NCBI GenBank assembly: GCA_031292195.1
Contig: JARLHP010000078.1
Location: 1-63,151, forward strand
DNA: 63,151 nt
Source of the DNA: Syntrophobacteraceae bacterium
GTDB taxonomy: Bacteria; Desulfobacterota; Syntrophobacteria; Syntrophobacterales; Syntrophobacteraceae
Reading direction: 5' to 3'
Shown: positions 207-26,208 of the stretch, piece after piece
How positions within the stretch are numbered: the stretch's first letter is position 1
How the letters are laid out: each line of letters opens with the position of its first letter
Program-made: the position numbers and the translations under genes
Notes under the pieces: generated by a model
What the model saw: only the letters and a program-made list of their open reading frames with translations
Database searches by the model: none
Told to the model about the DNA's origin: nothing

Positions 207-332
207 ATGCGAGATAACAAGAAAATGGAGTCGACCGAGACTCAAACAGCAAGCAGCGAAGATGACGTTTTCGCCGTCCACGAAATAACTGTCGAAGAAC
301 TTGCCATCGACGGTATCTGCGGGGTATATTGA
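207..332 (+). CDS. mftA: Mycofactocin precursor peptide MftA (copy 1)
   Basis: Encodes a 41-residue peptide, or 35 residues if the ATG at 225 is used. The acidic leader is followed by the C-terminus VEELAIDGICGVY, the hallmark of mycofactocin precursors. In the known pathway MftC, with MftB as peptide carrier, oxidatively decarboxylates the terminal Tyr and crosslinks it to the preceding Val; MftE then cleaves the end off, and the Val-Tyr remnant becomes a redox cofactor. The ribosome binding site is weak for either start, so the start is uncertain. It stands at the head of the flavoprotein/ETF operon (556-8983), away from mftB and mftC, which lie with a second precursor gene near 17 kb on the other strand. 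The family assignment rests on the conserved C-terminal octet and on that context. Confidence 0.9.
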   Translation: MRDNKKMESTETQTASSEDDVFAVHEITVEELAIDGICGVY

Positions 333-555
333 GGAATTCAGGGTCGTGGGGCCAGGTCAAAGCCTCTCCTGGAGAGTGGGGCAAAGGATGGACAAAAAAC
401 GCTGCATGCTTGCTCCCGGCGATGGCGTTCCACACTTACAATGACATCTCCATGCCCGATCCGGAATACCTTATGAACCTGAGGTCTTTGTCCTCCGGCC
501 TTTCATCGAATGGATTCCCGCTCTCTTGATCGGCTTCCAGGTGGAATCGAAGCGT

Positions 556-5443: not shown

Positions 5444-5452
5444 GGCCGGAAT

Positions 5453-6196: not shown

Positions 6197-6200
6197 GGAG

Positions 6201-8078
6201 ATGCCATTGTTCACCGTCTTTGATCCCTTGCTGATTACCGCCGCCCTTCTCGTCATGATCGCGGGAACGGCAGTGCGGTGGCGCTCCTGGCAAAGGGGAA
6301 GAAAAGAAGAGCGCTCCGGGGACTGGAAGGGGCTCTGCGGCTATCTTCTCTCCCACCGCAAAATCATGCGGAAGGACCGCTCCGGGATTGCCCACCTGCT
6401 TCTTTTCTGGGGAGTTCTCCTTCCGCTTGCGGTCATCTTTTTGGCCCAGTTCTCCTTTGTCCTTCCCGCGAAGCTCGCGGGCGCCCTTTCTCTTTTTTTA
6501 AATCTCCTGGGTGCCGCGGCCATAGTCGGAATCCTTTTTTTCCTTGTGCGGCGTATGGGAAAGGATGGTTCGCCCCCTGAAGGCGTCCTCCCGCCCGCTG
6601 TTCTCCTCCTCTTCATTCTCCTGAGCGGGTTCGAAGCCCAGGGGGTTCGTCTTAATATTGTCCCGGCACCGCTCTGGACGGCCCCGGTAGGAGCGCTTTT
6701 TTCCGCCCTCTCCCCCGCCTCGCCCCTGTTCCTCCAGCTCCTCATCCGGATGCATTTGCTTGCCGTGCTCCTTCTTGTGGCCACACTTCCCTTTACCTTC
6801 CTGCGCCACGTGACGGCCGGGGCCCTGAACGTCTATTACAAAAGCAAAGGCCCCCGGGGGGCGCTTAGACCGCTTGCCATGGAGGAAGGGTGTCTCGGGG
6901 CAAAGACCGTCGAAGATCTCTCCTGGAAGCAGCTGCTCGACGCCGAGGCGTGCGTTTCCTGCGGCCGCTGCGAGGAAAACTGCCCCGCCTTTCTTTCCGG
7001 AAAACCCCTTTCCCCCCGCAAGGTGATAAGAACCATCTTAAATCAGATGGCGACGCCCCGCGGCTCTCATCCTCTCCTTGGTGAGGCCGTAACCACCGAA
7101 GAGCTCTGGTCCTGCACCACCTGCATGGCCTGCGTGGCCCATTGTCCCCTTTACATCGACCCGCTGGACAAGGTCGTGGACATGCGCCGATACGAGGTCC
7201 TGGGCAAGGGGGCGGCGCCGGTCGAGGCCCGGCCCATGCTCCGCAACCTGGAGCTTTTCGGGGATGTTAACGGAAAATCGGCTTCCCACCGCACCGACTG
7301 GGCCCTAAACCAGGAGGTCCCGCTTTTGTCCGGCCAGCCGGTGGAAGTTTTACTCTGGGTCGGCTGCTCCGGGGCGTTTCACCCCGCCTACCGGGAAACC
7401 ACCCGGGCCATGGTCCGGATTCTCAAAAAAGGGCAAGTCTCTTTCGCCATCCTTGGAAAAGAGGAGAAATGCTGCGGCGACCCGGCCAGAAGATTGGGCG
7501 AGGAAGCGCTTTTTCTCGACCTTGCCAGGGAAAATATCCGCCTTTTTAACCGCTTCTCTTTTAAAAAGATCGTTACACTTTGTCCCCATTGCTTCAACGT
7601 GCTCAAAAACGAATACCCCGCTCTTTCTGATAACCTCCTGCCGGGTAACTTCGAGGTCCTCCATGCGTCGCAGTTCGTGCTGGAGTTGATCGAGCAACAG
7701 AAGATCACGCTAAAATATCCGGTAAGAAGCACGGCGGCCATTCACGATCCCTGCTATCTGGGACGGGCCAACGGCGTCTACGAGCCCCTTAGAAAAATCG
7801 CCGGGGCCGTTCCCGGACTGGTTTTACACGAGTTCCAAAGAACGGGTGAAAGCGGCTTTTGCTGCGGCGGGGGCGGGGGGCGAATGTGGCTTCACGAGAG
7901 CGGGACTCACATCAACACCCTGCGGGCAAAAGAGATCGCGCAAAGCGGCGTGGGGCTGGTTTCAACGGCATGTCCCTACTGCCTTACCATGCTGGAAGAC
8001 GGTCTGGGGGGGCTCGAACTGGAAAAAAGACCGAAGGTGAGGGACCTGATAGACATAGTGGCGGACTCCCTGGGATAA
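6201..8078 (+). CDS. Membrane Fe-S oxidoreductase (HdrD/DsrK-like, ETF:quinone type)
   Basis: 625 residues. The N-terminal third has several membrane helices (residues 8-30, 60-82, 90-115, 130-150, 175-205) resembling a NarI/DsrM-like heme b domain. Two 4Fe-4S motifs follow (CVSCGRCEENCP near 252 and CTTCMACVAHCP near 305), then two CCG cysteine-rich domains (CCGDPARR near 425 and CCGGGGGRMW near 555). This fusion (DUF224 type) is known to link ETF to menaquinone in syntrophic and sulfate-reducing bacteria. Its place between etfA and etfB supports that role. GGAG lies just before the ATG. The direction of electron flow cannot be read from sequence. Confidence 0.86.
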   Translation: MPLFTVFDPLLITAALLVMIAGTAVRWRSWQRGRKEERSGDWKGLCGYLLSHRKIMRKDRSGIAHLLLFWGVLLPLAVIFLAQFSFVLPAKLAGALSLFLNLLGAAAIVGILFFLVRRMGKDGSPPEGVLPPAVLLLFILLSGFEAQGVRLNIVPAPLWTAPVGALFSALSPASPLFLQLLIRMHLLAVLLLVATLPFTFLRHVTAGALNVYYKSKGPRGALRPLAMEEGCLGAKTVEDLSWKQLLDAEACVSCGRCEENCPAFLSGKPLSPRKVIRTILNQMATPRGSHPLLGEAVTTEELWSCTTCMACVAHCPLYIDPLDKVVDMRRYEVLGKGAAPVEARPMLRNLELFGDVNGKSASHRTDWALNQEVPLLSGQPVEVLLWVGCSGAFHPAYRETTRAMVRILKKGQVSFAILGKEEKCCGDPARRLGEEALFLDLARENIRLFNRFSFKKIVTLCPHCFNVLKNEYPALSDNLLPGNFEVLHASQFVLELIEQQKITLKYPVRSTAAIHDPCYLGRANGVYEPLRKIAGAVPGLVLHEFQRTGESGFCCGGGGGRMWLHESGTHINTLRAKEIAQSGVGLVSTACPYCLTMLEDGLGGLELEKRPKVRDLIDIVADSLG

Positions 8079-8113
8079 ACAACTGATATGAATAGTCCCG
8101 CATCGAGGCATGC

Positions 8114-8983
8114 ATGAAAATTGTGGTTTGCGTAAAGCAGGTCTGCCAGGTCTGCGGCAGGAGCGGACTAGCGCCCGAGACCCGGTTTTTGACCCCGCAA
8201 GATCTGGTGTACCGGGTAAACCCTTACGATGAGGCCGCCGTTTCGGTGGCCGCAAGGATCAAAGGGGCATCGGATAAAACGGAAGTCCATCTGCTAACGC
8301 TCGGACCTCTCACGGCCGAGCGTGAGTTGAGGCGCTGCGCGGCAATGGTCGAAGCAAACGACCTCTTCCAGATCGTTTCGGATGCCGACCTCGACCCGAG
8401 GTCCAAGTCCGACCTTCTGGCGCAAGCCATAAGAAATATCGGACCAGACCTGGTCTTGTGCGGCAAAGAGTCCATCGACACCCGGCACGGCCAGGTGGGG
8501 GCCTTTCTGGCCCACAGCCTGGGACTCCCCTTTGTGGCCTCGATAAAGGAACTGGATATCTCGGCGGAAGGGAAGGCCAGGGTGGAACGCTCGGCCGGGC
8601 GGGGCCTTCGCGAGATTCTGGAGTCCACCCTGCCGGCCGTATTCAGTGTGGATATGGGTGCGCAGGCCTTGCTCCTGCCTTCCCTGGAGCAAAAGAAACG
8701 GGCCGATCGCCTGGTGGTGCGGACCCTTGCCTTCGAGGAAGGCGCAAAGCCCCGGACCAAAAGAGTCGGCCTCCATCCTCCCCGTCCCAGGCCGAAAAAA
8801 ATCGCCGCCCCCGACAGCCGGCTTCCCGCTTTTGAAAGGATCGCACAGCTCCTTTCGGCCGGCCGCGTCGAGAAGAAGGGGGTCGTTTTGAACGGCACGG
8901 TTGAATCCCAGGTGGATGGACTTCTCGCTTTTCTAAAAGAACATTCTCTATTCAACGCGAGGAATGTCCCCGGCGGAGAATAA
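8114..8983 (+). CDS. etfB: Electron transfer flavoprotein beta subunit (FixA/EtfB-like)
   Basis: 289 residues. It begins KIVVCVKQV, typical of ETF beta, and has the NPYDEAAVSVAARI segment and the DLVLCGKESIDTRHGQVG nucleotide-binding region. It would pair with the alpha subunit at 4454 to make the ETF of this operon. The extended C-terminus (residues 225-289) is unlike the usual ETF beta tail. It is the last gene of the plus-strand operon; the next gene is convergent, 87 bp away. The mycofactocin precursor at the operon start and the OYE pair suggest a dedicated ETF rather than a general beta-oxidation ETF. Confidence 0.87.
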   Translation: MKIVVCVKQVCQVCGRSGLAPETRFLTPQDLVYRVNPYDEAAVSVAARIKGASDKTEVHLLTLGPLTAERELRRCAAMVEANDLFQIVSDADLDPRSKSDLLAQAIRNIGPDLVLCGKESIDTRHGQVGAFLAHSLGLPFVASIKELDISAEGKARVERSAGRGLREILESTLPAVFSVDMGAQALLLPSLEQKKRADRLVVRTLAFEEGAKPRTKRVGLHPPRPRPKKIAAPDSRLPAFERIAQLLSAGRVEKKGVVLNGTVESQVDGLLAFLKEHSLFNARNVPGGE

Positions 8984-12641: not shown

Positions 12642-12679
12642 GATACGCTCCAACCGAATCATCGGCTCGGTGCCGGTTT

Positions 12680-13861
12680 CTACAGACCCAGGGCGGCAGC
12701 TTTGGCTGCCTCCATTACTTCTTTGAGGGAAAGATTTTTTTCAAGGGTGATCCGCCTGCAGTCTTCGTATTCGGGAGAAATATTGGTAACGCCGTCGTTT
12801 GTTTCGGCAAATTTGCACTTTACAGGCCCATGGACGGTTTGTACTTCGCGGATCGTTCTGCGCGCCTTGAACCGATTTTCGAGTCTCCACCTGAGTCCGA
12901 TTGTAGTGGTTTCGCGCAGCAAAAAGTCGGTGAAGCGCTCCAGGAGATGAGGCTGACAGATCACGGACACAAGTGTCCCGGGGCGGTTTTTCTTCATCTG
13001 GACCGGGCTGAGGAATACGTCCAATGCTTCCATCTCCAGCATTTTACTCATCAGGTAATCATACACCTGGGGGTTCATGTCATCAATATTGGTTTCAAGA
13101 ACTGCAACCTGTTCTTTTTCATAGCCGCGCAATTCATCGCGGGCTTCTCCAATCATGATGCGCAGCAGGTTGGGCATATCCGGTTCGCTCGTTCCCGCCC
13201 CGTAGCCGATTTTTTCCAAGGTCATACCCGGCGAAGGCCCGAAGCCCGAAGAAAGCGTGGTCAGTATGGCGGCGCCGGTGGGTGTGAGGAGTTCGCCTTG
13301 AACTCCCGTCGAATAGATCGGCTTGCCCTTGATCAACTCCGCGGTGGCCGGGGCCGGCACCGGCAATATGCCGTGCGCGCACTCCACGGTCCCGGCGCCC
13401 ACATGGAAGGGCGAGCAGTAGAGCCTCTCGATTCCCATGGCCGCCAGTCCCGCCACGCCCCCCACCACATCGATGATCGAATCCATGGCGCCAACTTCGT
13501 GAAAATGAATGCGATCGACGGTAGTCCGATGAACATGGGCTTCGGCTTCCGCCAGTCGCCTGAAAATCCTGAGGCTCTTTTCCTTCACGGACTCATCCAG
13601 GCTGCTCGCCCCGATGATCTCCTCTATATCCTCCAGGTGCCGGTGATGGTGATGATGGTGATGATCATCTATTGTAACGATAGCCCGGCTTCCGCCGATG
13701 CCCTTCTTCACCACTTTTTCCACATCGATATCGTAGTGGCTGAGGCGCAGTTTGGCGATTTCGTCTCTCAGCAGTTCCACACCAAGCCCCGCATCCAGCA
13801 GCGACCCCAGGATCATATCCCCGCTGGCGCCGCAGAAACAGTCAAAATAGGCGATTCTCAT
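12680..13861 (-). CDS. larC: Nickel insertion protein LarC (nickel-pincer cofactor)
   Basis: 393 residues starting RIAYFDCFCGASGDM, the family signature. LarC performs the last step in making the nickel-pincer nucleotide cofactor, CTP-dependent nickel insertion. A histidine run (seven consecutive His near residue 78) probably binds nickel and is typical of the family. In Lactobacillus plantarum the gene is split and joined by frameshifting (LarC1/LarC2); here it is one uninterrupted frame. GGAGG lies 7 nt before the ATG. It sits 81 bp after larB, and that spacer holds an imperfect palindromic repeat. No larA (lactate racemase) or other obvious client enzyme is present in the window. Confidence 0.92.
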   Translation of the reverse strand: MRIAYFDCFCGASGDMILGSLLDAGLGVELLRDEIAKLRLSHYDIDVEKVVKKGIGGSRAIVTIDDHHHHHHHRHLEDIEEIIGASSLDESVKEKSLRIFRRLAEAEAHVHRTTVDRIHFHEVGAMDSIIDVVGGVAGLAAMGIERLYCSPFHVGAGTVECAHGILPVPAPATAELIKGKPIYSTGVQGELLTPTGAAILTTLSSGFGPSPGMTLEKIGYGAGTSEPDMPNLLRIMIGEARDELRGYEKEQVAVLETNIDDMNPQVYDYLMSKMLEMEALDVFLSPVQMKKNRPGTLVSVICQPHLLERFTDFLLRETTTIGLRWRLENRFKARRTIREVQTVHGPVKCKFAETNDGVTNISPEYEDCRRITLEKNLSLKEVMEAAKAAALGL

Positions 13862-13874
13862 TATTTCCTCCGTT

Positions 13875-13914
13875 GGGTCCCATGGGTCCAATAGGAACCA
13901 TAGGACCGATGGGG
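13875..13914. repeat. Imperfect palindromic CCATGGGTCC-type intergenic repeat
   Basis: The larB-larC spacer contains iterated, partly palindromic words (GGGTCCCATGGGTCC, then variants AGGAACCATAGGACC and GATGGGG). It could form a hairpin in the mRNA between the two genes. Whether it affects stability or is only a dispersed repeat cannot be told. Confidence 0.45.
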
Positions 13915-13942
13915 CTTATTGTACCCTGAAAAGACCCTGTTC

Positions 13943-14773
13943 CTACCGGCTGCAAGCTACCGGGTGAAGCCTCTCGGGGCAGCGTGCCGGCCCCGCCTCT
14001 TCCACTGCCGGTTGCTTGTCCGCTTTGTTCAGGGCCAGTCTGTTTATGAGTCCCGCCTGGTACCCGGCGCCGAAACCATTGTCGATGTTTACTACGGACA
14101 CTCCCGAGGCGCAACTGTTGAGCATGCTGAGCAAAGCCGCCACCCCCCCGAAGCTTGCCCCGTAACCGACGCTGGTCGGCACTCCAATTACCGGACAGGA
14201 AACCAGGCCGCCGACCACGCTGGCCAAAGCGCCCTCCATGCCCGCTATTACCACCACCACGTTGGCTTCAAACAAATCTTGGCACACGTTGAGAAGGCGG
14301 TGAATTCCGGCCACGCCCACATCGTAAATCCGCTTGACAGTGTTGCCGAGCATTTCGGCTGTGACCGCGGCTTCTTCGGCCACGGGCATGTCCGATGTGC
14401 CGGCGCTCACCACCGCGATATTTCCGTGCTTTTCCACCGGTTCGGGGCGGATCACAACGATTCGGGCCATCTCGAAGTATTCACACTCCGCTACCTCGCG
14501 AACCGCTTCATATACTTCGCTTCCCGCCCGGGTGGCCAGCACGTTGGCATGAGTCTGCGAAATCCTCTGCACAATGCCTTTTATCTGCGAAACGGTCTTG
14601 CCCTGGCAGAATATGACCTCCGGGACCCCGGTGCGCACGCACCTGTGATTATCGATTCTGGCGTAGCCCAAATCTTCAAAGGGAAGTTTCTTCAACTGAA
14701 ACATCGCCGCGTCCAGATTCATCCGGCCGTTTTGAACCTTCTCCAGAAGGTCTCTAAGATGCTTGTGGTCCAT
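13943..14773 (-). CDS. larB: Nickel-pincer cofactor biosynthesis protein LarB
   Basis: 276 residues. LarB carboxylates nicotinic acid adenine dinucleotide at C5 and hydrolyses the phosphoanhydride; it is related to PurE. The PurE-like region is visible as VVSAGTSDMPVAEEAA (about 120-140), AGMEGALASVVGG and the VPTSVGYGASFGG loop. The ATG at 14773 lies 3 bp past the larE stop, with GAGG upstream; a TTG two codons earlier is possible. The C-terminal 20 residues beyond the conserved core are variable. Encoded between larE and larC. Confidence 0.93.
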   Translation of the reverse strand: MDHKHLRDLLEKVQNGRMNLDAAMFQLKKLPFEDLGYARIDNHRCVRTGVPEVIFCQGKTVSQIKGIVQRISQTHANVLATRAGSEVYEAVREVAECEYFEMARIVVIRPEPVEKHGNIAVVSAGTSDMPVAEEAAVTAEMLGNTVKRIYDVGVAGIHRLLNVCQDLFEANVVVVIAGMEGALASVVGGLVSCPVIGVPTSVGYGASFGGVAALLSMLNSCASGVSVVNIDNGFGAGYQAGLINRLALNKADKQPAVEEAGPARCPERLHPVACSR

Positions 14774-14775
14774 TC

Positions 14776-15633
14776 TCAAACCTCGCTTCCTTTTTCCTGC
14801 GTCTCGCTTTCGGCCTTCGGGTTGAGGTTTCCCATGCGATATCCTTCCAGATCGAGCATCACCAACTTGAACCCGATTCCTTTCAGAAAACCCACCACAT
14901 CCTCCCGGATCTCTTTTTCGAGCAGTTTGGGTATGTCTTGAGCGGCAATCTCGATGTGGGCCACCTTACCGTGATGCCTCACCCGAAGCTGCCTGCTGGT
15001 TATTTTCGACAGAATAAAGTCTTCCGCTGCTTCGACCTGCGAAAGTTTTTCCGCGGTGATCGGAGTTCCATAGGGAATCCTGGTCGCCAGGCAGGGCGAG
15101 GCGGGTTTGTCCCAGGTGGACAATCCCAACCGCCTGGACAGGGTCCTGATATCGGCTTTTGAGAGCCCGGCCTCCAGCAGCGGACTTCTCACCCCGAGTT
15201 CCAGGAGTGCTTTCATGCCGGGTCGATAATCGCCCCGGTCATCGCTGTTGGACCCGTCCGCCGTCCAGTTCAGGCCCCGTTGTCCGGCAAGAGCGGTAAT
15301 GGCGGCAAATCGGCTCTTCTTGCAGATGTAGCACCTATCCTCGGAATTTTTCGTAAATTCGGGGATTTCCAATTCGTCGGATTCGATGATGAGGTGTCCG
15401 ATGCCTGACTCCGCGGCGAGCCTTTCGGTTGCCTGCTTTTCATGGCGCGGAGTGGTCCGGGACGCGGCGGTCACCGCCAGGACCCTGTCGTTTCCCAGCA
15501 CCATTTGAGCAACCCGCACCAGCAGCGTGCTGTCCACCCCTCCGGAGAAGCCCACGGCCACGCTCTCCATTTTTGTGAGGATCTCCTGTAGACGTGAATA
15601 CTTCTCATCTGTGGCTTTCTCGATTGTGACCAT
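14776..15633 (-). CDS. larE: ATP-dependent sacrificial sulfur transferase LarE
   Basis: 285 residues from the ATG at 15633. It has the PP-loop SGGVDST (about 31-37), the DRCYICKKSRF motif and C181 in SPCLATRIPYG. That cysteine matches the residue that donates its sulfur as dehydroalanine in Lactobacillus LarE. LarE sulfurates the LarB product twice to give the pincer dithio compound. A longer frame extends upstream through mftC, but the LarE homology starts at VTIEKATDEK. It begins only 38 bp after mftC, which places nickel-pincer synthesis inside the mycofactocin operon. Confidence 0.93.
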   Translation of the reverse strand: MVTIEKATDEKYSRLQEILTKMESVAVGFSGGVDSTLLVRVAQMVLGNDRVLAVTAASRTTPRHEKQATERLAAESGIGHLIIESDELEIPEFTKNSEDRCYICKKSRFAAITALAGQRGLNWTADGSNSDDRGDYRPGMKALLELGVRSPLLEAGLSKADIRTLSRRLGLSTWDKPASPCLATRIPYGTPITAEKLSQVEAAEDFILSKITSRQLRVRHHGKVAHIEIAAQDIPKLLEKEIREDVVGFLKGIGFKLVMLDLEGYRMGNLNPKAESETQEKGSEV

Positions 15634-15671
15634 CAGGTGCGCTCCATCAGATAAAATACGGGCGCCGGTAG

Positions 15672-16718
15672 TCAATTGCCCGTAACCATTTGCCTGTGCG
15701 CCGGGTGAGCCTTGACGCCCACGCAATTGGCCAGGCAGCCGGGGTCCGGTACTCCAAGTCTTCTCTGGGTGTGATAGGCGATAGCAGGGCAGCCTCCATG
15801 GCACATATCGAAGCGGTGGCAGCTTCCACACGATTTGATCTCCAGGCGGCGAAACGATTCGAAAACGGGAGAGTGCTTCCAGATAAAAGCCAGCGGCTCC
15901 TCGGGCGCCCGGCCTGCCAGGAATTCGGATTGCTGCAGGAAAGCGCACGGGTACACTCTTCCCAAAGGAGAGATGCAGCAGGTGAGCTTGCAGGCCCCGC
16001 ACATGTTCAGTCCGAGGGACCTCCGTTCTTCGGTGGTGATCGAAAAAAAGGAGTCCCCGGTCGAGACCTCGAGGTTGCGACTGAGCCAGTTCGAAAATTC
16101 GACCATCTGCTCTTTGGAAACGTTCAGCCTGGACCATGATTTTTCCCCGCGCCCCGAGGGCCGGAACCTGGAAACACGGAACCCGGCCCCGAAGGAGGCG
16201 GCGAGTTGGGTCAGCTTGTCGAGTTCCAAAAAATTGAGCCTGGTGAGCACCGTGTTGATGCTTGCCGCTACGTTTCTCTGCCTGAGAAACTCCAGTGATC
16301 TCAACGCCTTCTTATAACTTCCCCTGCCCCGAACACCGTCATTGGACTCGGGCGTGGCGCCGTCGAGGCTCACCTGGATGTATACCAGCCCGTGATCCAG
16401 GCGGCGCGCCACCTCCCGGTCTATGAGAGTCCCGTTGGTGCTGATGCACGTCACCATGTCCTTTTGGTGAGCATAGTCCATCAACTCCAGGAAATCCGGG
16501 CGTGCGAACGGTTCCCCGCCCCCGATATTGAGTTGGAAGACTTTGGCGGCGGCGAGATCGTCGATGACCCGCCTGCACTCCTCCGTGGTCAGTTCTCCGT
16601 ACCGCTTTGCGCCGGAATCGGACAAACAATGAACACAGGAAAGGTTGCAGGCGTAAGTCACTTCCCAGGTAACGTTTACCGGGGCGCATAGACCCATCTC
16701 AACGTAGCCGTTGCTCAT
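15672..16718 (-). CDS. mftC: Mycofactocin radical SAM maturase MftC
   Basis: 348 residues. The radical SAM cluster motif is C24-x3-C28-x2-C31 in TYACNLSCVHC, followed by NIGGGEP for SAM binding. A C-terminal SPASM domain has the cysteine array MCGACKLTCC, YPCAF, CGSC, MCHGGC and PGC. MftC oxidatively decarboxylates the terminal Tyr of MftA and then forms the Val-Tyr C-C bond. The WEVTYACNLSCVHCLSDSG and SRFRPSGRG stretches match MftC rather than other SPASM maturases such as PqqE, as I remember them. It starts inside the end of mftB (20-bp overlap), as expected for a coupled pair. Confidence 0.95.
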   Translation of the reverse strand: MSNGYVEMGLCAPVNVTWEVTYACNLSCVHCLSDSGAKRYGELTTEECRRVIDDLAAAKVFQLNIGGGEPFARPDFLELMDYAHQKDMVTCISTNGTLIDREVARRLDHGLVYIQVSLDGATPESNDGVRGRGSYKKALRSLEFLRQRNVAASINTVLTRLNFLELDKLTQLAASFGAGFRVSRFRPSGRGEKSWSRLNVSKEQMVEFSNWLSRNLEVSTGDSFFSITTEERRSLGLNMCGACKLTCCISPLGRVYPCAFLQQSEFLAGRAPEEPLAFIWKHSPVFESFRRLEIKSCGSCHRFDMCHGGCPAIAYHTQRRLGVPDPGCLANCVGVKAHPAHRQMVTGN

Positions 16719-17022
16719 CGATCAACCCTTTTGCTTCAAACGTGCGGAAAATCTCTTTGAGCCGATCCAATATCCGTTCTCCGGGAAGGCCGGATTTGTG
16801 GCGAATGGAATCCACCAATTTGCCTATTGTTTGTTTCCCGTCGAAAAAATCCTCGTTGATGAACCTCCCGGTTGGAACAAAATAAATTCTGGGGCCCCTG
16901 TGGTTGTAAAACAGAAGGCCGAACCTTTCCTGCCGTACACGAACTCCGCCGGCCAGGCGATAAGAACTGGACTCCGTGAAGTTATCCGAGGCTGCCGGGT
17001 GAGCGGCTTTGGTTCCTGCCAT
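16699..17022 (-). CDS. mftB: Mycofactocin peptide chaperone MftB (PqqD-like RRE)
   Basis: 107 residues with the PqqD/RRE winged-helix pattern (YRLAGGVRVRQERFGLLFYN near 20-40, then a helical half ending KGLIDEQ). MftB binds the MftA leader and presents the peptide to MftC. The order mftA-mftB-mftC with tight spacing is the canonical mycofactocin arrangement. A GGGGGGA ribosome binding site stands just before the ATG. It is somewhat short for the family but appears complete. Confidence 0.93.
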   Translation of the reverse strand: MAGTKAAHPAASDNFTESSSYRLAGGVRVRQERFGLLFYNHRGPRIYFVPTGRFINEDFFDGKQTIGKLVDSIRHKSGLPGERILDRLKEIFRTFEAKGLIDEQRLR

Positions 17023-17055
17023 CGATCCCCCCTCGAAAAAGAAACGGCCCGGGAA

Positions 17056-17178
17056 CTAATAGACTCCGCAGATACCGTCCACGGCCAACTCTTCAACGAT
17101 CACTTCATCCAGAATCCAGGGTTCCGTGCAGGTCTGCTCTTCTTCAGGCAATGTTTGATTTCTTCTTTCTGTTCCCAT
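17056..17178 (-). CDS. mftA: Mycofactocin precursor peptide MftA (copy 2)
   Basis: A 40-residue peptide reading MGTERRNQTLPEEEQ at the start and VEELAVDGICGVY at the end. The terminal octet is the MftA core; the Val-Tyr is the part kept in the cofactor. AAAGGAG lies about 11 nt before the ATG. It stands 33 bp before mftB and 47 bp after the SDR gene, so this is the precursor transcribed with its maturases. Compared with copy 1 at 207-332 the last 13 residues differ only by Ile/Val at one position, while the leaders differ almost completely. Both could be substrates of the single MftB/MftC pair. Confidence 0.95.
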   Translation of the reverse strand: MGTERRNQTLPEEEQTCTEPWILDEVIVEELAVDGICGVY

Positions 17179-17225
17179 TTCTGTTCAGTCTCCTTTATTG
17201 GCAGCTCTTGACCGGGAGTCCTCCC

Positions 17226-18035
17226 TCAGGGCGCACGAGCCGTCCAGCCGGCATCCACCACGACCTGTCCGCCGGTCATACACTTCGAATCTTCGGTGCA
17301 AAGCCAGCGTACCGCCTGCCCGACGTCTTCGGGACAAATCTCCCGGTCTTTGAAGAGGTGTCCGGCGAAGAAATTCTGTTTGGCCTCTTCGGTTTCCATT
17401 CCGAATGCGCCGGCCAGACCGGCCATCATGTCCGTCCACACTGTACCGGGACAGACCACATTCACATTGATATTGTGATCGGCGGTCTCCATGGCGAGCG
17501 ACTTGGTCAACCCGATAATGCCGTGCTTCGCCGCACAGTAGTGGGATCCCATACCGAAGCCGCGAAGGCCCCCGACCGAAGAGATGTTCACCACTTTTCC
17601 GCCGTGTTGCTCGATCATATGGGGCACCACATGTTTACAGCACAGGAAGGTGCCCTTGAGATGGATATCGAGCATGTCGTCCCAGGCCTCTTCAGACATG
17701 TCCACCAAGGCTTCCAGACCGCCAATGCCCGCGTTGTTCACCAATATATCCACCTTGCCGAACGTATCCATGACCTGCTTGACCATCGCCTCCACATCCC
17801 CGGAATTGCGAACGTCGCACTCGATGCCAATGGCCTTTCGCCCCATCTGTTCCAATTCCCGCACTGCCCCGGCCATCGTCTCCGGGTTCGAGAGCTGATA
17901 CGGGGTGGTCTCGATGTCACGGCATATATCGGCGATGGCGATGTCCGCGCCCTCCCGGGCCAAACATCTGGCCGCGGCCAGACCATTTCCTCGCGCCCCT
18001 CCTGTAATGATGGCCACTTTGCCTTCGAGCTTCAT
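17226..18035 (-). CDS. Mycofactocin-coupled SDR family oxidoreductase
   Basis: 269 residues. Classical short-chain dehydrogenase: TGGARGNG cofactor motif near 10, NNAG near 95, catalytic Ser in NISSVGG and the YCAAK pair near 165. After strand 3 it carries the insertion DICRDIETTPYQLSNPETM, the mark of mycofactocin-coupled SDRs. In those enzymes NAD(H) stays bound and electrons leave through mycofactocin. The ATG at 18035 has GGAGGAG upstream. It is the first gene of the operon with mftA, mftB and mftC. The substrate is probably an alcohol or hydroxyacyl compound but cannot be specified. Confidence 0.9.
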   Translation of the reverse strand: MKLEGKVAIITGGARGNGLAAARCLAREGADIAIADICRDIETTPYQLSNPETMAGAVRELEQMGRKAIGIECDVRNSGDVEAMVKQVMDTFGKVDILVNNAGIGGLEALVDMSEEAWDDMLDIHLKGTFLCCKHVVPHMIEQHGGKVVNISSVGGLRGFGMGSHYCAAKHGIIGLTKSLAMETADHNINVNVVCPGTVWTDMMAGLAGAFGMETEEAKQNFFAGHLFKDREICPEDVGQAVRWLCTEDSKCMTGGQVVVDAGWTARAP

Positions 18036-18351
18036 GCCTTTTCTCCTCCACTTCCTGCGGGCGAAGCCCCAGGGCTCGGTCCCGCTCAATGTGTCCGATC
18101 GGCTGCGCCACGGCCATGCTTAACTCAACAACACTGCTGCAGGCCGGCCTCCCCCGGGTCCATTCTGTTCCAAGGGAAATTTATTGTAAGCGCGCCGGGT
18201 TAAGACTCACTCCGGTCCGATGGCCCCTGCCGCCGTGGTTCGGTGTGCCTGCCGCCTATCCGCCGAAGGCCTGCCCTTTTGACCGGCCGTCGTCTCCCGG
18301 CCGGTCAAAAAAAAAGAACTCTCTGTGTCGCCGTGGTGGATTTTCCTGTTT
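18036..18351. other. Spacer upstream of the SDR-mft-lar operon
   Basis: No gene is evident in these 316 bp. The part next to the SDR gene should hold the operon promoter, but I find no convincing -35/-10 or -24/-12 box. The far part contains copy A of the GACCGGCCG hairpin repeat. Confidence 0.5.
18277..18345 (-). repeat. Dispersed hairpin repeat, copy A
   Basis: A 13-bp perfect inverted repeat (TTTTGACCGGCCG, 8-nt loop, CGGCCGGTCAAAA) at 18277-18309. Beside it is a tract reading, on the minus strand, CCACCACGGCGACACAGAGAG. The same composite occurs at 56617 and 58870. The stem is followed by A rather than T in either direction, so it is not a canonical terminator. Confidence 0.8.
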
Positions 18352-18693: not shown

Positions 18694-18726
18694 AAGAGCG
18701 CCCTCGCTTGCGTTTTGTTTTTCCGA

Positions 18727-19017: not shown

Positions 19018-19029
19018 CGCCTTCCCCGT

Positions 19030-19407: not shown

Positions 19408-20304
19408 CTAACGTTTATGAGCATCTCTGCCCTCAGCCCATTGGCGCTGCTTTACCACCACTTTCTCACGGGGCGGAAGCCGCCTGAGGATGTCGTCGGC
19501 TATTTTCACCATGGCCTGAGCGCTAAGAGAATCAGGGTTCTTGAAGACTATGGGGATACCGTCATCGGCGGCATCCGAGTACTGCCCGTCCAGAGGGATT
19601 CCTCCGAGAAAAGGAATATTGAACGTTTTCGCCAGTCTTTGTCCCCTGCCCTTGCCGAACAAAAATTCTTCCTTGCCGCAGTCGGGGCAGCGATACGAAC
19701 TCATGTTTTCTATAAGGCCAAGAATCGGGGCGTTAAGCTCCCGGGCCGCATTGATGGCCCGGCTGCACACCTGCGCCGATATTTCCTGAGGCGTGGTAAC
19801 CACCACCATGCCGTCCAGGCTGGGGATGGACTTCATGATCGTTATCGGTTCATCTCCCGTGCCCGGAGGCAGGTCGATGAAGAGAAAATCGAGCTCATGC
19901 CACCTGATGCTGCTCAGAAATTGCCTGATTACCCGCGCCTTGTATTGTCCCCGCCACATGATGGGCGTCATGTCGGTAGGCCAGATGAGGGCCACGGACA
20001 TGACCTTCAACCCATGGGGAGTAACCACCGGATCGATCCCGTGGCTTCCGTGCAGGATGTCTCTCATTTCGGTTTTGACGCCCACCATTTTGGGCACGCT
20101 GGGTCCGTGGACGTCTGCATCGAAGATGCCAACCTCCATTCCCCTCTTCTTCATGGCCGCCGCCAGGTTCACCACGGCGCTGGTCTTTCCCACCCCGCCC
20201 TTGCCGCTGATGATGGCGATCTTATAATTGACGTCTTTGGTGGCGTCTCTGATCGGCCCGTGCATCCTGTGCATTTCTTCCTTCGTCATTTCCGCGTGAT
20301 GCAT
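19408..20304 (-). CDS. mrp: Mrp/NBP35-family ATP-binding protein
   Basis: 298 residues from the ATG at 20304 (AGGAG 6 nt upstream). P-loop SGKGGVGKTS near 35, the IFDADVHGPS switch and the FIDLPPGTGDEP motif define the Mrp/ApbC family. The CXXC pair in YRCPDCG is the site where these homodimers hold a bridging 4Fe-4S cluster. The role is Fe-S cluster delivery to apo-proteins. Clients encoded nearby include the DUF362 ferredoxin-like proteins, MftC and the siroheme proteins. The DUF362 family domain at the usual N-terminus of long Mrp forms is missing, as in many anaerobes. Confidence 0.88.
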   Translation of the reverse strand: MHHAEMTKEEMHRMHGPIRDATKDVNYKIAIISGKGGVGKTSAVVNLAAAMKKRGMEVGIFDADVHGPSVPKMVGVKTEMRDILHGSHGIDPVVTPHGLKVMSVALIWPTDMTPIMWRGQYKARVIRQFLSSIRWHELDFLFIDLPPGTGDEPITIMKSIPSLDGMVVVTTPQEISAQVCSRAINAARELNAPILGLIENMSSYRCPDCGKEEFLFGKGRGQRLAKTFNIPFLGGIPLDGQYSDAADDGIPIVFKNPDSLSAQAMVKIADDILRRLPPREKVVVKQRQWAEGRDAHKR

Positions 20305-20363
20305 TTTGACTCCTGATATCGGATGGCAAGACTTGTGATGTCGGGTCTTTGGTTTCTGACCGA

Positions 20364-21476
20364 TCACTCGCTGATTAGGAGTTCACACATTGTGTTCCCC
20401 AGGGCCATTTTTTCCCCGTATTCCAACATTCGGGCAGGAGTATTTCCCGTAATGGCCAGGATTTTGTCCGACCCTTCATGGAGAACGTTGAGGTCTTGGG
20501 CTATCGAACCGGGAATGCCGGGGCTTCGCTGGATCACTTGCCACGTGACCCAGTCGAGGGCCACGGGGTCGGCTGAGGCCAGAATGCCCAGGTCGGGAAC
20601 GAACGGGATATCTGAAAAAGGATAGTCATCGCTCTGTGGAGTGACCGAATTGAGGAAATTTATGAAAAATGCTTTGCCTCTAAGGTTCTTCATTACGACT
20701 GCGGCCGCTTCCGCAACGCTTTCCTGGAACTCCGCGATCCCCGGGGGGGTGATGCTCATCGCCCCCTTCGGACAGCTCATGAAGCAGCCAAGGCAGCCGT
20801 TGCATATCCGCGGGTCGAAAGAGACCCTGGAACCGTCGTCGCTCAGGGCGCCGGTGGGGCAATAAGAAAGACATGCCCTGGAGCCGTCGCACCTGTTTTC
20901 GTCAAACCGCAGTTCGAGGCAGGAGTGGACTCGCGATTTCCCGGTACGGGTCAGAAGCCCCATCCCCAGGTTGTACACGGCCCCGGCTACTCCCACCAAC
21001 GGGTGGGCGGTAATATGAGAAAGGACGATCAGGTTCGAAATATCCAGGATCAGGCTTCCCAGTTCGACGCCCCCCAGGTGGTCGCCGTCCGAGGGACAAA
21101 ATCGGCCTTCTTCGTTGGTAAATCCTCCCGCCAGCATCATCTGGTTATCCAGCGCGTCACCAATACCGAAACCCTGTACGATGGCGCTGTCCGTCCACCC
21201 ATGGCCGTCGAACCGGGGGCCTTTGAACAAGCTCCCGCTGTCGGTCACCAGCGCCGTGGCGCCCCTCTCCCTGGCCTGCTCGAAGAGCGCGGTGACCGCT
21301 ACGGGCGGAAGAGCGTGGCCGTAGCCCAGTTCGCTGACGTTGGCCTTGATGGCCAGGCTTCGATTCGGGACCACCACGTCCGCCATCTCTTCCAGACTCA
21401 AAATGGACGCAATTTTGGCGGTAAGGCTCTTTTGGATGTTGGTGCTTCGCCCTTTGACCCAGTAGACTCGACTCAT
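20364..21476 (-). CDS. DUF362 protein with ferredoxin-like Fe-S motifs (1)
   Basis: 370 residues of the DUF362 family: an N-terminal domain (KANVSELGYGHALPP near 45), a ferredoxin insert and a C-terminal segment (DLGILASADPVALDWV). The second cluster motif is complete (CNGCLGCFMSCP). The first is degenerate (C-x5-C-x3-CP in CDGSRACLSYCP), so one site may be lost or altered. DUF362 proteins are cytoplasmic Fe-S proteins of unknown activity, common in anaerobes. It is the upstream partner of Mrp and 123 bp from a second DUF362 gene. Confidence 0.8.
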   Translation of the reverse strand: MSRVYWVKGRSTNIQKSLTAKIASILSLEEMADVVVPNRSLAIKANVSELGYGHALPPVAVTALFEQARERGATALVTDSGSLFKGPRFDGHGWTDSAIVQGFGIGDALDNQMMLAGGFTNEEGRFCPSDGDHLGGVELGSLILDISNLIVLSHITAHPLVGVAGAVYNLGMGLLTRTGKSRVHSCLELRFDENRCDGSRACLSYCPTGALSDDGSRVSFDPRICNGCLGCFMSCPKGAMSITPPGIAEFQESVAEAAAVVMKNLRGKAFFINFLNSVTPQSDDYPFSDIPFVPDLGILASADPVALDWVTWQVIQRSPGIPGSIAQDLNVLHEGSDKILAITGNTPARMLEYGEKMALGNTMCELLISE

Positions 21477-21599: not shown

Positions 21600-22958
21600 C
21601 TATTGGGCCGTCGGATCGAACTGTTTCCAGTTTTTCAGCCACTCCGGCAGATTTTCTCTTTTGAACGGCAAGAATTCGCGAGCCAGATGATGGTTTTTGA
21701 ATATCTGGCGCATCGGTTTGACAGTCATCGGGGTCTTACGGATTTGCCACTTGGAGATATTTTCCGGATTGAGTTCAGGTTCGTAGACCACCAGCTCATA
21801 GTTCGTGGTGCCCATTCCGATCTTCTCGCCCGCCTTGAGTTGAATCCTGGGGGTAAAAGCGTTTACTGCCTTGAATTTGTCTTCCCCCGGTTTTAGACCC
21901 AGCTCTTCGGCGCGGGACGTGGGCATTATGGGCGCCTTGTCGATCATGTCGCAGACAGCCGAATCGATGGCCACCGGGTCTTTGGATGCAAACACGCCTA
22001 CATCGGGCACCACCGGCATACCACCCCACGGGAAGCAGTCACATTCCGGGCAGATGTCCACCGCATAGGACATATAGCCGATCTTGCCGGGTTTGAAGGT
22101 CTTTATGCAGCCAAATGCGGCGTCGGCCATGGCGATCTGGGCCAGCGGGAAGTAATCGTCGCGGAAACCGATGCCCTCCATGCCGGTGAACATGCAGGTG
22201 ACCTGGCAGGAATAGCACAGGGCGCACTTGGCATAGTCTATCACCACACCTTCCGGGGTTACCGTGATGGCCTCGTCGGGGCAGCTGTCTTCGCACATCT
22301 TGGAATAGGGACACTCGGTGCCTCTGCAGGCCTCCTTGTTTACCTTGGGGTAGCCGATGGCGTCTTCCGGGTCGCCCCAGAAAGCCAGGTGGGTCTGGTA
22401 CTTGCCGCGCTTTGACTGCGCCCCTATTCCGAAGTTTTTGATGCAGCCGCCAAAGGCGGTGATCGGATGCCCCTTGGCATGGGCCAGGTTGATGCACGCA
22501 TCCGCTTCGTACATGCCCCGTCCGATATAGGTCTCTTTCAAAATGTTGCCCTCGGGGAGTTCGATCCTCAGATCGTCTTCGCCCGAAAACCCGTCCGCGA
22601 TCACGAAAGGAGCCTGAAGGCTTGCCGGGTTGTGGCCGTGCCGATTGGCCCCTTCCATCGCCAGCTGGCCGGTGCAGCGGTTATTGTAGAGGTGGTAGGT
22701 GAGGGTGGTGGTGTCGGTTACAAACGGTCTTCCGCCGCATGCCTTGACTTCTTCGATAATAGCCGCGACGAACTCGGGGCGCAAACAGTGGGTGCGGTTC
22801 CACTCACCCTGGTGAATCTTTATGGCGACGCTGTCGTCTTTTTCTATACATTTGTCCAAGCCCGCCAAATAGAAAAGATCCTTGGCCTTGCAGATCGTGC
22901 TCTCCGTCCAGTTGGTGGCGTTGGCGCCGGCGAACCAGACTTTTGAAGTCTTAGCCAT
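21600..22958 (-). CDS. DUF362 protein with ferredoxin-like Fe-S motifs (2)
   Basis: 452 residues, longer than its neighbour. DUF362 core with KIHQGEWNRTHCLRPEF near 48 and a ferredoxin insert near 215-260 (CRGTECPYSKMCEDSCP and CALCYSCQVTC). The C-terminal domain has VPDVGVFASKDPVAIDSAVCDM. The extra C-terminal 80 residues are basic. A possible sigma-54 promoter and an inverted repeat lie upstream (22998-23098), next to the sigma-54 activator gene. The reaction is unknown; an electron-transfer or Fe-S role is inferred. Confidence 0.8.
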   Translation of the reverse strand: MAKTSKVWFAGANATNWTESTICKAKDLFYLAGLDKCIEKDDSVAIKIHQGEWNRTHCLRPEFVAAIIEEVKACGGRPFVTDTTTLTYHLYNNRCTGQLAMEGANRHGHNPASLQAPFVIADGFSGEDDLRIELPEGNILKETYIGRGMYEADACINLAHAKGHPITAFGGCIKNFGIGAQSKRGKYQTHLAFWGDPEDAIGYPKVNKEACRGTECPYSKMCEDSCPDEAITVTPEGVVIDYAKCALCYSCQVTCMFTGMEGIGFRDDYFPLAQIAMADAAFGCIKTFKPGKIGYMSYAVDICPECDCFPWGGMPVVPDVGVFASKDPVAIDSAVCDMIDKAPIMPTSRAEELGLKPGEDKFKAVNAFTPRIQLKAGEKIGMGTTNYELVVYEPELNPENISKWQIRKTPMTVKPMRQIFKNHHLAREFLPFKRENLPEWLKNWKQFDPTAQ

Positions 22959-23572: not shown

Positions 23573-24910
23573 CTATGGGAAAACCTTGTGTTTGTGGAGT
23601 TTTTTGTAGAGGGTTTTGCGGTTGATCCCCAGGATTTCGGCGGCCTTGCTCTGATTGCCTCCGGCCGAGTCCAGGACCTCTATGATATGGTCTTTTTCAA
23701 GTTCTTCCAGGGTTTGCAGTTGACGGGGCGGCGCCTTCCGGTTGGCCAGAATCTGCGAGGGCAGGTGCTCGGGCATTATGGTCCCCGACACGGCGAAGAT
23801 CATCGCTTTATTTATGACCGATCTCAGCTCCCTCACATTTCCCGGCCAACTGTAGTCTCTCAACACCTGCAGGGTTTCCGGGTGCATGGTGGCCTGGAGA
23901 CCCCGGTGTTCCGTTTTCAAGAAATGAGAAACCAGGCATTCGATATCTTCCGGGCGGTTTCTAAGCGGTGGAATGGTGATGTCGATAACACCCATGCGGT
24001 AGAAAAGGTCCTCGCGGAAGGCGCCCCTGTGGACCGCATCGCTCAGATCCATGTTGGTCGCCAGGATTAACCTGGTATCGACCTCAACCTCCCTGGTTTC
24101 GCCAACACGTCGGAATTTTCTGGTTTCCAGGAAACGGAGGAATTTTTTCTGTAATTCCATGTCTATATTGCCGATTTCATCCAGGAAAAGCGATCCCCCG
24201 TGGCTTTGCTCCACCAAGCCGGTTTTCCTTTCCCCCGCTCCCGAAAAGGCCCCCTTGCCGTGTCCGTACAGCTCGCTTTCCGCCAGGTTCTTGTTTAAAA
24301 GGCCGCAGTCGATGGTAACCAAGGGGCCGTGCCTGCGGAAGCTGGCCGAGTGGATCTGGGAGGCAAGCACATCCTTGCCCGCGCCTGTCTCGCCCTGGAT
24401 AAGAATGGAGCTGTCGGTGGGGGCCGCCTTTTCCACAAGATCATATACCGCTCGCATCGATCTGCTGGGGCAGCGCAATGAACTGAGGCCTTTATCCCCA
24501 CCTTTCACCCTTTCGGGCCGGGTGCACGCGCAGGCCTCATCCGCTGAATCGGCTATCGCCCGTTTGACCAGGCCCTGGAGTTCGTCCAGTTTAAACGGCT
24601 TGGTAATGTACTCCCTGGCCCCCAGTTTTAAAGACTCCACCGCCGTTTTGATGTCGCCATAGCCCGTGATCATCAGCACCTCGGGAGCCGGGCATCTTTT
24701 TTTCACTCGCCGCAACACCTCGATGCCGTTCATCCTGGGCAGCTTTATGTCCAAAAGCACAACATCGAAGGGTTCGTTGTCCAGGAGTTTGAGGCCTTCC
24801 TGTCCATCCCTGGCGGTCTTTACCTCGTAGCCTTCCAGGGTAAATTCACTTTCAATCAGGTGTCTAATGTTTTGCTCGTCGTCTATGGCCAGAATCTTTC
24901 CAGGACTCAT
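23573..24910 (-). CDS. Sigma-54-dependent response regulator (NtrC type)
   Basis: 445 residues: receiver (1-120; acidic DDE near 9, phosphoacceptor Asp in VVLLDIKLP, Lys in ITKPFKL), AAA+ domain (145-380; GETGAGKD Walker A, FLDEIGNI Walker B) and a C-terminal Fis-type helix-turn-helix (KAAEILGINRKTLYKKLHKH). The sigma-54 contact loop reads GAFSGA instead of the usual GAFTGA, a conservative change. AGGAG precedes the ATG. The probable partner kinase is encoded 93 bp upstream on the same strand. Targets are likely nearby genes with -24/-12 promoters. Confidence 0.92.
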   Translation of the reverse strand: MSPGKILAIDDEQNIRHLIESEFTLEGYEVKTARDGQEGLKLLDNEPFDVVLLDIKLPRMNGIEVLRRVKKRCPAPEVLMITGYGDIKTAVESLKLGAREYITKPFKLDELQGLVKRAIADSADEACACTRPERVKGGDKGLSSLRCPSRSMRAVYDLVEKAAPTDSSILIQGETGAGKDVLASQIHSASFRRHGPLVTIDCGLLNKNLAESELYGHGKGAFSGAGERKTGLVEQSHGGSLFLDEIGNIDMELQKKFLRFLETRKFRRVGETREVEVDTRLILATNMDLSDAVHRGAFREDLFYRMGVIDITIPPLRNRPEDIECLVSHFLKTEHRGLQATMHPETLQVLRDYSWPGNVRELRSVINKAMIFAVSGTIMPEHLPSQILANRKAPPRQLQTLEELEKDHIIEVLDSAGGNQSKAAEILGINRKTLYKKLHKHKVFP

Positions 24911-25003
24911 TACGAAGCTCCTCTCGCTTCTTTTGCCACTTTCCCGAATCGCGGGCCGGCCGCAAAACGACTGAGGCTCCGCAACCCGTAAGCTCCACGG
25001 CTC

Positions 25004-26200
25004 TCACACGGCAGGAAAACGCAAGACGAAAGCCGATCCCTTTCCTTTGACACTGTTGACTTGAATATCTCCCTTATGGTGCTGCATTATACTGTAGCAG
25101 ATGGACATACTCAGCGGCGTTCCGCCAACCCCCGGATTGGTGGCCTGGGGTGTTTGCAGTGTCCCGCCATCCGGTCCTGTCGCACAGACACTTCCGTTAT
25201 CCGAGATTACGACCTGGACGTGGTTGCCGCTGTTCCCGGCGCTGACCGTCAGCGTGGCGCCATCTTCCGTGCTCTCCAGCGCGTTGTTTAGAAGATTCAA
25301 AAACATGTGTTTCAGTTCGGATTCATTGCCTATTATCGGAACGGGCTTCTTATCCGCACCGTTGACTAGGATAATCTTTATGCCGCTATCCTTGGCGTGC
25401 TGTTTGATAAGCGAGGCCGTGTCATCGATCACCGAATTTACATCCAGGATTCGATGCTCGTCGGTGGATTTCTGAGAAAACCGGATCAGGTTCCGGATAA
25501 TGTCTCGGCAGCGATATGCTTCATTATTTATGATCTGCAGGTAATCTTCAAAATAGTGGATAATCCTGGCGGTGTCGAACTCCCGGACCGTTTTCAGCCG
25601 TTTGAGCAACCCCTCTGAAAAACCGGCTATGGAGGTGAGCGGGTTATTTATTTCATGAGCGATTCCCGCCGCCAGCAGGCCTATGGCGGCCATGCGGTCC
25701 GCGCGCATCAGGTTGAACTCGTATTCCTTGCGCTCCGTAATATCTCTCATCAGAAGGATTACACGTTCCACCTGGTGTAAAGGACCTCTTACCGCCGATG
25801 TGGTCCACTCGAAGCAACGGCCCGTAAACTCCCCATGACCAATAACGATCTCGCCACGCATGGTTTCGCCTGTATTCATGGTCTGGAGCGCGGGGCATTT
25901 CTGACAGACTTTATCTTGACAGTAAAAAGCTTCATGGCACTTTTGGCCGATCAGCGGACTTTGCGCAAACACTGTCTGCTGAACCTCATTGACAAAAACG
26001 ATGTTGAGGTCCCGGTCAAGTATGGTAAGCCCGTCCGTCATATTATCGATGATGGCTTCCAGTTCGTTATGGCGGCGCGCCAGTTCGGTGCTCAGAGCTT
26101 CGAGTTCACTTATCTTGGAGCGAACCTGTTTGAAATGGCCAACCTTGGAATAGCCAAGTCCTTTGAAATCAGGAGTAACTGGTTTGAATTCTTTTGGCAT
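25004..26200 (-). CDS. PAS sensor histidine kinase, partner of the NtrC-type regulator
   Basis: 398 residues from the ATG at 26200, 8 bp after the alcohol dehydrogenase gene. A coiled coil (30-60), a PAS domain (60-180) containing C-rich CHEAFYCQDKVCQKCPAL, a HisKA domain (GIAHEINNPLTS) and an ATPase domain (NLLNNALES). The ATP lid is abnormal: after ISDNGSV the usual GIP and phenylalanine-rich lid are replaced by a Gly/Thr/Pro-rich stretch, and the GLGL box reads GTPLSMSI. The PAS cysteines suggest a redox or metal cofactor. No membrane helix. The two-component pair probably controls the neighbouring dehydrogenase or DUF362 genes. Confidence 0.83.
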   Translation of the reverse strand: MPKEFKPVTPDFKGLGYSKVGHFKQVRSKISELEALSTELARRHNELEAIIDNMTDGLTILDRDLNIVFVNEVQQTVFAQSPLIGQKCHEAFYCQDKVCQKCPALQTMNTGETMRGEIVIGHGEFTGRCFEWTTSAVRGPLHQVERVILLMRDITERKEYEFNLMRADRMAAIGLLAAGIAHEINNPLTSIAGFSEGLLKRLKTVREFDTARIIHYFEDYLQIINNEAYRCRDIIRNLIRFSQKSTDEHRILDVNSVIDDTASLIKQHAKDSGIKIILVNGADKKPVPIIGNESELKHMFLNLLNNALESTEDGATLTVSAGNSGNHVQVVISDNGSVCATGPDGGTLQTPQATNPGVGGTPLSMSICYSIMQHHKGDIQVNSVKGKGSAFVLRFPAV

Positions 26201-26208
26201 ATCGAATT

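Follow-up and report, generated by a model that had tools for sequence, protein, structure and literature searches.

In the mycobacterial mycofactocin pathway, MftB binds the precursor peptide MftA, MftC decarboxylates and cyclises its Val-Tyr, MftE releases AHDP, MftD oxidises AHDP to premycofactocin, and MftF adds glucose (PMC7491314 and PMC11778925). According to Haft 2011 (PMC3023750), the MftA, MftC and MftF families agree perfectly, and the MftD and MftE families are not universal. We analysed a window of 63,151 nucleotides (the whole stretch of DNA considered here) from a Syntrophobacteraceae bacterium, whose genome (G000) comprises 5.5 Mb in 311 contigs, is 94.9% complete and has a contamination estimate of 3.4%. 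The window carries a mycofactocin island on its minus strand, in which SDR-mftA-mftB-mftC-larE-larB-larC follow one another with overlaps or short gaps between genes. Its features, in the direction of transcription, are these:

23573..27366, minus strand: sigma-54-type response regulator, PAS histidine kinase and ErcA-like iron alcohol dehydrogenase
21600..22958, minus strand: DUF362 protein b (DUF362b), with a LarA-like fold prediction and H164-x9-K174-x15-H190 kept
20364..21476, minus strand: DUF362 protein a (DUF362a), with a 4Fe-4S domain and without the LarA tether lysine
19408..20367, minus strand: Mrp/NBP35-type P-loop NTPase gene, recurring in clade I islands
17226..18089, minus strand: mycofactocin-coupled SDR (NF040490 SDR_subfam_3, 502.8 bits)
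17190..17193, minus strand: GGAG, ribosome-binding-like site, 11 bases 5' of the mftA ATG
17056..17178, minus strand: mftA of variant type beside a clade I mftC, mycofactocin precursor of 40 codons with the C-terminal end VEELAVDGICGVY
16699..17022, minus strand: mftB, peptide chaperone (TIGR03967, 40.9 bits, cut-off 33)
15672..16718, minus strand: mftC, radical SAM maturase of clade I (TIGR03962, 377.5 bits, cut-off 265)
14776..15672, start approximate, minus strand: larE, sulfur transferase of nickel-pincer cofactor synthesis (TIGR00268)
13943..14779, minus strand: larB (NF033503)
12680..13891, minus strand: larC (TIGR00299 and NF052512)

The mftA at 17 kb runs from an ATG at 17178 to a stop ending at 17056 and encodes MGTERRNQTLPEEEQTCTEPWILDEVIVEELAVDGICGVY; the SDR gene ends 47 bases upstream and mftB starts 33 bases downstream. 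The original prediction had placed here a 40-codon gene with a ribosome binding site, encoding an MftA precursor directly before mftB and mftC, and its coordinates are exact, the minus strand alone having been left unstated. The best model for the peptide is NF040489, "variant-type mycofactocin precursor" (45.5 bits, cut-off 30), and TIGR03969, which had been proposed as a check, also matches over its cut-off of 25 with 30.6 bits (both by hmmscan); in a whole-genome search the gene has an E-value of 1.5e-10, and the neighbouring genes pass TIGR03967 and TIGR03962. Membership in MftA is claimed by these two NCBI models and not by Pfam PF23709, whose gathering cut-off of 27 is reached neither by this peptide (24.0 bits) nor by the second one of the window, at position 207 (23.1 bits). 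The peptide ends in ICGVY, a C-terminal Val-Tyr core with Cys-Gly before it. Judged by its sequence, the frame is thus a genuine MftA precursor gene and a member of an already catalogued family. The claim that the precursor was hidden does not hold, since NCBI has a dedicated model for it (NF040489) and another for its SDR neighbour (NF040490). The row of genes is presumably co-transcribed; a scan of 12500-19100 gave promoter and terminator sites no commoner than in shuffles (2 vs 3.4 and 5 vs 7.9), and so neither supports nor excludes an operon.

The island is conserved well beyond this window. Naming the genes of other loci by tblastn with reference proteins, the families of which were checked, we found the order iron alcohol dehydrogenase-histidine kinase-regulator-DUF362b-DUF362a-Mrp-SDR in six of the seven loci with a clade I MftC (the window, L096, L120, L122, L014 and L140), the seventh (L121) starting inside DUF362b at a contig edge and ending at mftC. 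An mftA lies between SDR and mftB in six of the seven (the window, L096, L120, L121, L122 and L014) and is absent there from L140, of genome G028; a precursor occupies the same place between SDR and mftB/mftC in L015, L128, L129 and L130. The lar genes come after mftC in the window, L122, L140 and L014, and after mftF in L096 and L120, the latter without a larE match. The sigma-54-type regulator, the PAS histidine kinase and the ErcA-like alcohol dehydrogenase keep their order in other clade I loci and are possibly the control unit of the island. The ErcA-like protein scores 463.9 bits, under the cut-off of 550.

The genome encodes two MftC over cut-off, which are 52% identical to each other. 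In a tree of 31 MftC rows, the copy of the window falls inside clade I (7 rows, support 97/97) and the other, on contig C104, inside clade II (8 rows, 94/99); clade III has 9 rows (100/100). Genome G084, of another family, also holds both clades I and II. In four of the eight clade II loci (L132, L133, L137 and L138), mftA-mftB-mftC are followed by OYE1-OYE2-ETF alpha-cytochrome-HdrD-like genes; among the others, L136 ends within OYE1, L135 has OYE2 and ETF genes, L134 is cut within mftC, and L007 ends before the OYE/ETF genes.

The precursors tend to follow these clades in their leaders. We compared leaders of 12 residues among 22 precursors labelled by MftC clade (seven of clade I, eight of II and seven of III) and further unlabelled ones; the set omits L015 and G255 (copies of the G059 peptide), the actinobacterial loci and two Bacillota loci (L016 and L017), in which a search for the MftA end pattern found no peptide. 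The best-matching leader belonged to the peptide's own clade alone in 19 of the 22, among them all eight clade II precursors. Two were tied, the 17 kb peptide between clades I and III and that of G028 among all three clades, and one, L014 of clade I, was nearest to clade III. The leader of the 17 kb peptide even has a higher mean similarity to clade III (0.49) than to clade I (0.32). By eye, clade II leaders approximate F..xEIKIEE, and those of clades I and III P.ILEEI. Since the leaders of I and III are alike, as the ties indicate, leader type sets clade II apart and does not single out clade I. Moreover, co-inheritance of neighbours alone would yield a match between leader and clade, so that the presumed cognate recognition of leader by maturase is not proven by it. 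A clade I leader for the G028 precursor had been considered and was dropped, given its three-way tie.

At the other end of this part of the window, on the plus strand, lies a second precursor:

207..332, plus strand: second mftA of the window (model hits), with a clade II-like leader and the end VEELAIDGICGVY
412..534, plus strand: remnant of a clade II mftC 3' end, 37 codons, 86% identical to the C104 mftC
526..4457, starts approximate, plus strand: two FadH/OYE-family genes, best NCBIfam model TIGR03997 (mycofactocin OYE 2)
4454..8983, plus strand: ETF alpha, multihaem cytochrome, CCG/Fe-S (HdrD-like) and ETF beta genes

The peptide at 207 passes both NCBI MftA models (33.6 and 34.6 bits), and much of what had been predicted for the pair is borne out: the cores are near-identical (one difference in 13 between VEELAVDGICGVY and VEELAIDGICGVY), the leaders are by sequence of different types, and the second precursor does precede flavoprotein and ETF genes. 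Its leader is nearest to clade II (mean similarity 0.40), as are those of an orphan copy in G084 (0.54) and of a copy on contig C150 of the same genome (0.48). Of the OYE genes, the second passes TIGR03997 (865.3 bits, cut-off 793.15) and the first does not (755.9). The ETF alpha scores 154.3 against a cut-off of 240 and the ETF beta 82.8 against 200 with the models of mycofactocin-associated ETF, the best model for ETF alpha being that of acryloyl-CoA reductase, with 162.4 against a cut-off of 600. Going by gene order, the OYE, ETF, cytochrome and HdrD-like genes are a probable outlet for mycofactocin electrons.

Between the 207 mftA and the first OYE gene stands the mftC remnant, which is 88.7% identical over 124 bases to the 3' end of the C104 mftC (118 of 137 bases in another comparison), and whose frame stops where mftC ends. 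C104 ends in the same 141 bases with which the window begins, an overlap that would be usual for neighbouring contigs of a k-mer assembly, so that C104 apparently adjoins the window. If so, an intact clade II mftA-mftB-mftC lies about 4-5.5 kb upstream, and the joined order reads zinc ADH-aldehyde dehydrogenase-mftA-mftB-mftC-sigma-54 activator (opposite strand)-zinc ADH on C104, followed by (207 mftA)-(mftC remnant)-OYE-OYE-ETF. The simplest account we can infer is that the 207 copy is the leftover of a duplicated mftABC from which mftB and most of mftC were lost. OYE1 comes immediately after mftC in five of the eight clade II loci (L132, L133, L136, L137 and L138), an arrangement consistent with DNA having been deleted between the 207 copy and OYE1. 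Near the orphan precursors in G084, G314 and C150, as well as in L097, tblastn (E<=0.01) over stretches of 0.7-2.8 kb detected no leftover mftB or mftC sequence, and matches came solely from the first 600 bases of the window. The 207 copy is unlikely to serve as an additional precursor source for the 16 kb maturases: the leaders nearest to its own are of clade II, the remnant of a clade II mftC follows it, and the contig that apparently adjoins the window carries an intact clade II mftABC.

The count of two precursors given in the original prediction stands for the window and falls short for the genome, in which four mftA-like sequences score over the NF040489 cut-off: two in the window, one on C104 and one on C150. 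In the last, none of ATG, GTG and TTG occurs from the upstream stop to the conserved region, and the 18 kb examined turned up no mft neighbours. This clade II-like orphan lies in L008 at 8515-8613, on the minus strand. Of 395 genomes sampled from the phylum, 18 carry a precursor match over cut-off; in three of them there is more than one (four in G000, three each in G084 and G314). At the level of the order, the variant MftA occurs in three of 39 genomes, all of the window's genus (G000, G028 and G032), a patchy spread that would fit horizontal transfer.

Taken together, the precursors seem to belong to two cassettes residing in the same genome rather than to a single supply gene that was duplicated. 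We put at about 0.8 the probability that the 17 kb gene is the MftA of a clade I cassette, SDR-mftA-mftB-mftC and then larE-larB-larC, and that the 207 copy derives from another cassette, of clade II, as the remainder of a duplicated mftABC whose intact counterpart is the one on C104. By analogy with characterised homologues, MftB would hold the leader, MftC would decarboxylate and cross-link the C-terminal Val-Tyr, and the presumed cofactor would serve the SDR and the alcohol dehydrogenases nearby and hand its electrons to the products of the OYE/ETF/cytochrome genes at 0.5-9 kb.

The alternatives differ in what they would make of the same genes. The most radical, that the 17 kb frame is a chance or dead ORF, could point to its length of just 40 codons, to a score under the Pfam MftA cut-off and to G028, which lacks the gene at this site though it carries a precursor elsewhere. 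It is nonetheless nearly negligible given the two NCBI models passed, the place kept in five other clade I loci and the bias of change towards synonymous codons: over the final 12 codons, six precursors from clade I genomes (L096, L097, L014, L120, L121 and L122) differ from the 17 kb mftA by 4-7 synonymous and 1-2 amino-acid-changing codons, when the synonymous share of the possible single-base changes is 24/108 (22%). It is also highly unlikely that the clade II sequences on C104 and C150 belong to another organism, or that the join of C104 to the window is false. The 311 contigs, the contamination estimate of 3.4% and the C150 copy, with neither start codon nor mft neighbours, might raise such a suspicion; however, the 207 copy and the mftC remnant are inside the window, on the same contig as the clade I cassette, the ends of C104 and the window coincide over 141 bases, and G084, of another family, has both clades as well. 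A more serious contender is the idea that the same maturases process both precursors into a single cofactor pool, with the supply set separately by the maturase and the OYE/ETF operons. In the mycobacterial pathway only the C-terminal Val-Tyr enters the cofactor (as far as the available portions of PMC7491314 and PMC11778925 describe it), so both peptides could yield the same product, and separate regulation of the two is possible. Furthermore, precursors without mftB/mftC alongside also occur in G084 and G314, and in G028 the sole precursor found (E<=0.001), whose leader is not clearly of one clade, precedes OYE1 about 20 kb upstream of mftB-mftC (L140, L097), with none between SDR and mftB. 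Yet two divergent MftC are encoded in the genome, the leader of the 207 peptide matches clade II and not the clade present at 16 kb, and the mftC remnant beside the 207 copy points to the decay of a duplicate. We therefore regard a single pool as possible and somewhat doubtful, and two co-resident cassettes with a partly decayed duplicate as likelier than two supplies.

A further alternative arises from the lack of MftE and MftD: the matured Val-Tyr might stay on an uncleaved peptide, and several MftA would then be protein-bound redox carriers for different oxidoreductases. Searches of G000 gave no match at E<=1e-5 for either protein. As controls, an actinobacterial MftE (L025) scores 362.8 bits by hmmscan, which is not a whole-genome search, and the search run on G000 also recovers MftD over cut-off from the L025 and L022 genomes, and not from the L017 genome. 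Among 19 precursor-bearing relatives of the phylum (17 from the survey of 395 genomes, G028 and G032), all 19 have an MftC over cut-off and none an MftE; MftD exceeds its cut-off in one of the 20 genomes including G000 (G405). The mftA copies also adjoin different dehydrogenase or flavoprotein genes, as such carriers might. Against them speaks the presence in G000 of an MftF (365.1 bits, cut-off 280, C186:537-1943), a protein that in mycobacteria glycosylates a small molecule, and the observation that an mftE mutant of M. smegmatis still makes some mycofactocin through an unknown peptidase, an mftD mutant making none (PMC7491314, available portion). Besides, proteins of the MftE superfamily that score under cut-off (11 of the 19 relatives) and similar sub-cut-off relatives of MftD (E<=1e-20 in five of the 20 genomes, among them G028 and G032) might stand in for the missing enzymes. 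Uncleaved carriers thus seem decidedly unlikely to us. The sole mftF over cut-off, on C186 (L098 1-1955), comes after the end of another ETF beta gene, which over 278 bases is 98% identical to that of the window; a second OYE/ETF operon may therefore exist.

In the clade I cassette, in which we place the 17 kb gene, larE-larB-larC come directly after mftC, although the genome gave no match to a LarA domain. PF09861, which is the N-terminal part of LarA, was found in 17 of the 20 genomes searched (in G324 as a weak fragment only) and was absent from G000, G028 and G032, the three mycofactocin genomes found in the genus. The notion that lar genes as such track mycofactocin in this order was rejected, since LarC is over cut-off in 37 of its 39 genomes and the variant MftA in three. 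G000 has a second larC, on contig C76. In search of a client for the lar products, DUF362b is the candidate of the island. It is well conserved, with identities of 93% in G032 and G028 and 85-86% in G084, G177 and G324 (MftC 71-77%), and it was found in the clade I stretches and in some of clade III (L015, L128 and L129), and in none of clade II. Its structural model (pLDDT 67.4, pTM 0.75) matches 18 PDB chains at E<=0.001, all 18 of the LarA family (best 2.1e-6), with TM-scores of just 0.26-0.44 and several chains being the same protein. All nine DUF362b keep H-x9-K-x15-H (H164, K174 and H190), the spacing of His174, K184 and His200 of LarA, which are a His and the NPN-binding Lys and His (PMC11770544, available portion); the motif also occurs in the Lar_N-bearing frame of five of five LarA loci, and the tether lysine in none of seven DUF362a. 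Eight cysteines between positions 211 and 255 are invariant in the nine DUF362b. Profile comparisons are fainter. DUF362b scores 11.0 bits with Lar_N PF09861, under the cut-off of 23.3, and eight of nine orthologues match Lar_N at E<=1 (best 0.042). The hhalign comparisons with the LarA profile are weak (probability 5%, E 0.0075 for DUF362b alone; 11%, E 0.0029 with both DUF362 groups), though the one for DUF362b alone puts H164, K174 and H190 on the LarA residues without gaps. When residues 1-192 of DUF362b were compared with solved structures by phmmer, the one match (E = 0.51) was not to LarA, and a profile built from both DUF362 groups picked up ferredoxins by way of its Fe-S part.

One reading of these data, tentative and on balance rather unlikely, is that the clade I island couples two rare redox cofactors, a lar-made nickel-pincer nucleotide whose client is DUF362b and not LarA, and mycofactocin, from whose intermediate or substrate the hydride would come. 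Under such a coupling, larE-larB-larC would make the nickel-pincer nucleotide, DUF362b would be a LarA-fold enzyme with the tether lysine and a nickel-ligand histidine, its eight cysteines could hold Fe-S clusters, and it would pass electrons on, perhaps replacing MftD, where none was found, in the oxidation step by which mycofactocin becomes redox-active. As DUF362b is not in clade II stretches, it cannot replace MftD in all genomes unless encoded elsewhere. Kinship of DUF362 and LarA is already in print: both are in Pfam clan CL0471, and DUF362 served as outgroup of LarA in PMC11770544, the available portion of which states no nickel-pincer role for DUF362. The literature searched gave neither a link of mycofactocin with the nickel-pincer cofactor nor a case in which a DUF362 protein with the NPN-binding residues is encoded next to lar genes while the genome lacks a LarA match. 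If the coupling were true, a DUF362 protein would gain a nickel-pincer function, lar genes without larA would gain a client, and mycofactocin would be tied to the nickel-pincer cofactor.

The peptide itself is thus expected, and its value lies in the setting. A literature search for NF040489/NF040490, for variant-type mycofactocin and for multiple or second mftA returned nothing relevant. Two diverged mycofactocin cassettes in one genome are a natural test of leader discrimination by MftC, and the missing matches to MftD and MftE make concrete the open end of the pathway outside actinobacteria. With the described MftA (TIGR03969 and the variant NF040489), the 17 kb peptide shares the C-terminal DG-I-CG-VY, the length and the place before mftB and mftC; it differs in a leader that scores best as variant type, in its SDR_subfam_3 neighbour and in being one of four mftA-like sequences in its genome. 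The mycobacterial mftABCDEF clusters have the same order mftA-mftB-mftC and likewise an MftF and an MFT-coupled SDR, whereas here mftD and mftE were not found, mftF is on another contig, two mftC are present, and larE-larB-larC join the same row of genes. Comparable, too, are the non-actinobacterial clusters of Geobacter and Pelotomaculum in Haft 2011 (PMC3023750), a study in which the MftD and MftE families are reported as not universal; the present genome adds to them several mftA, two kinds of cassette side by side and a link with lar genes, which the available portion of that work does not mention.
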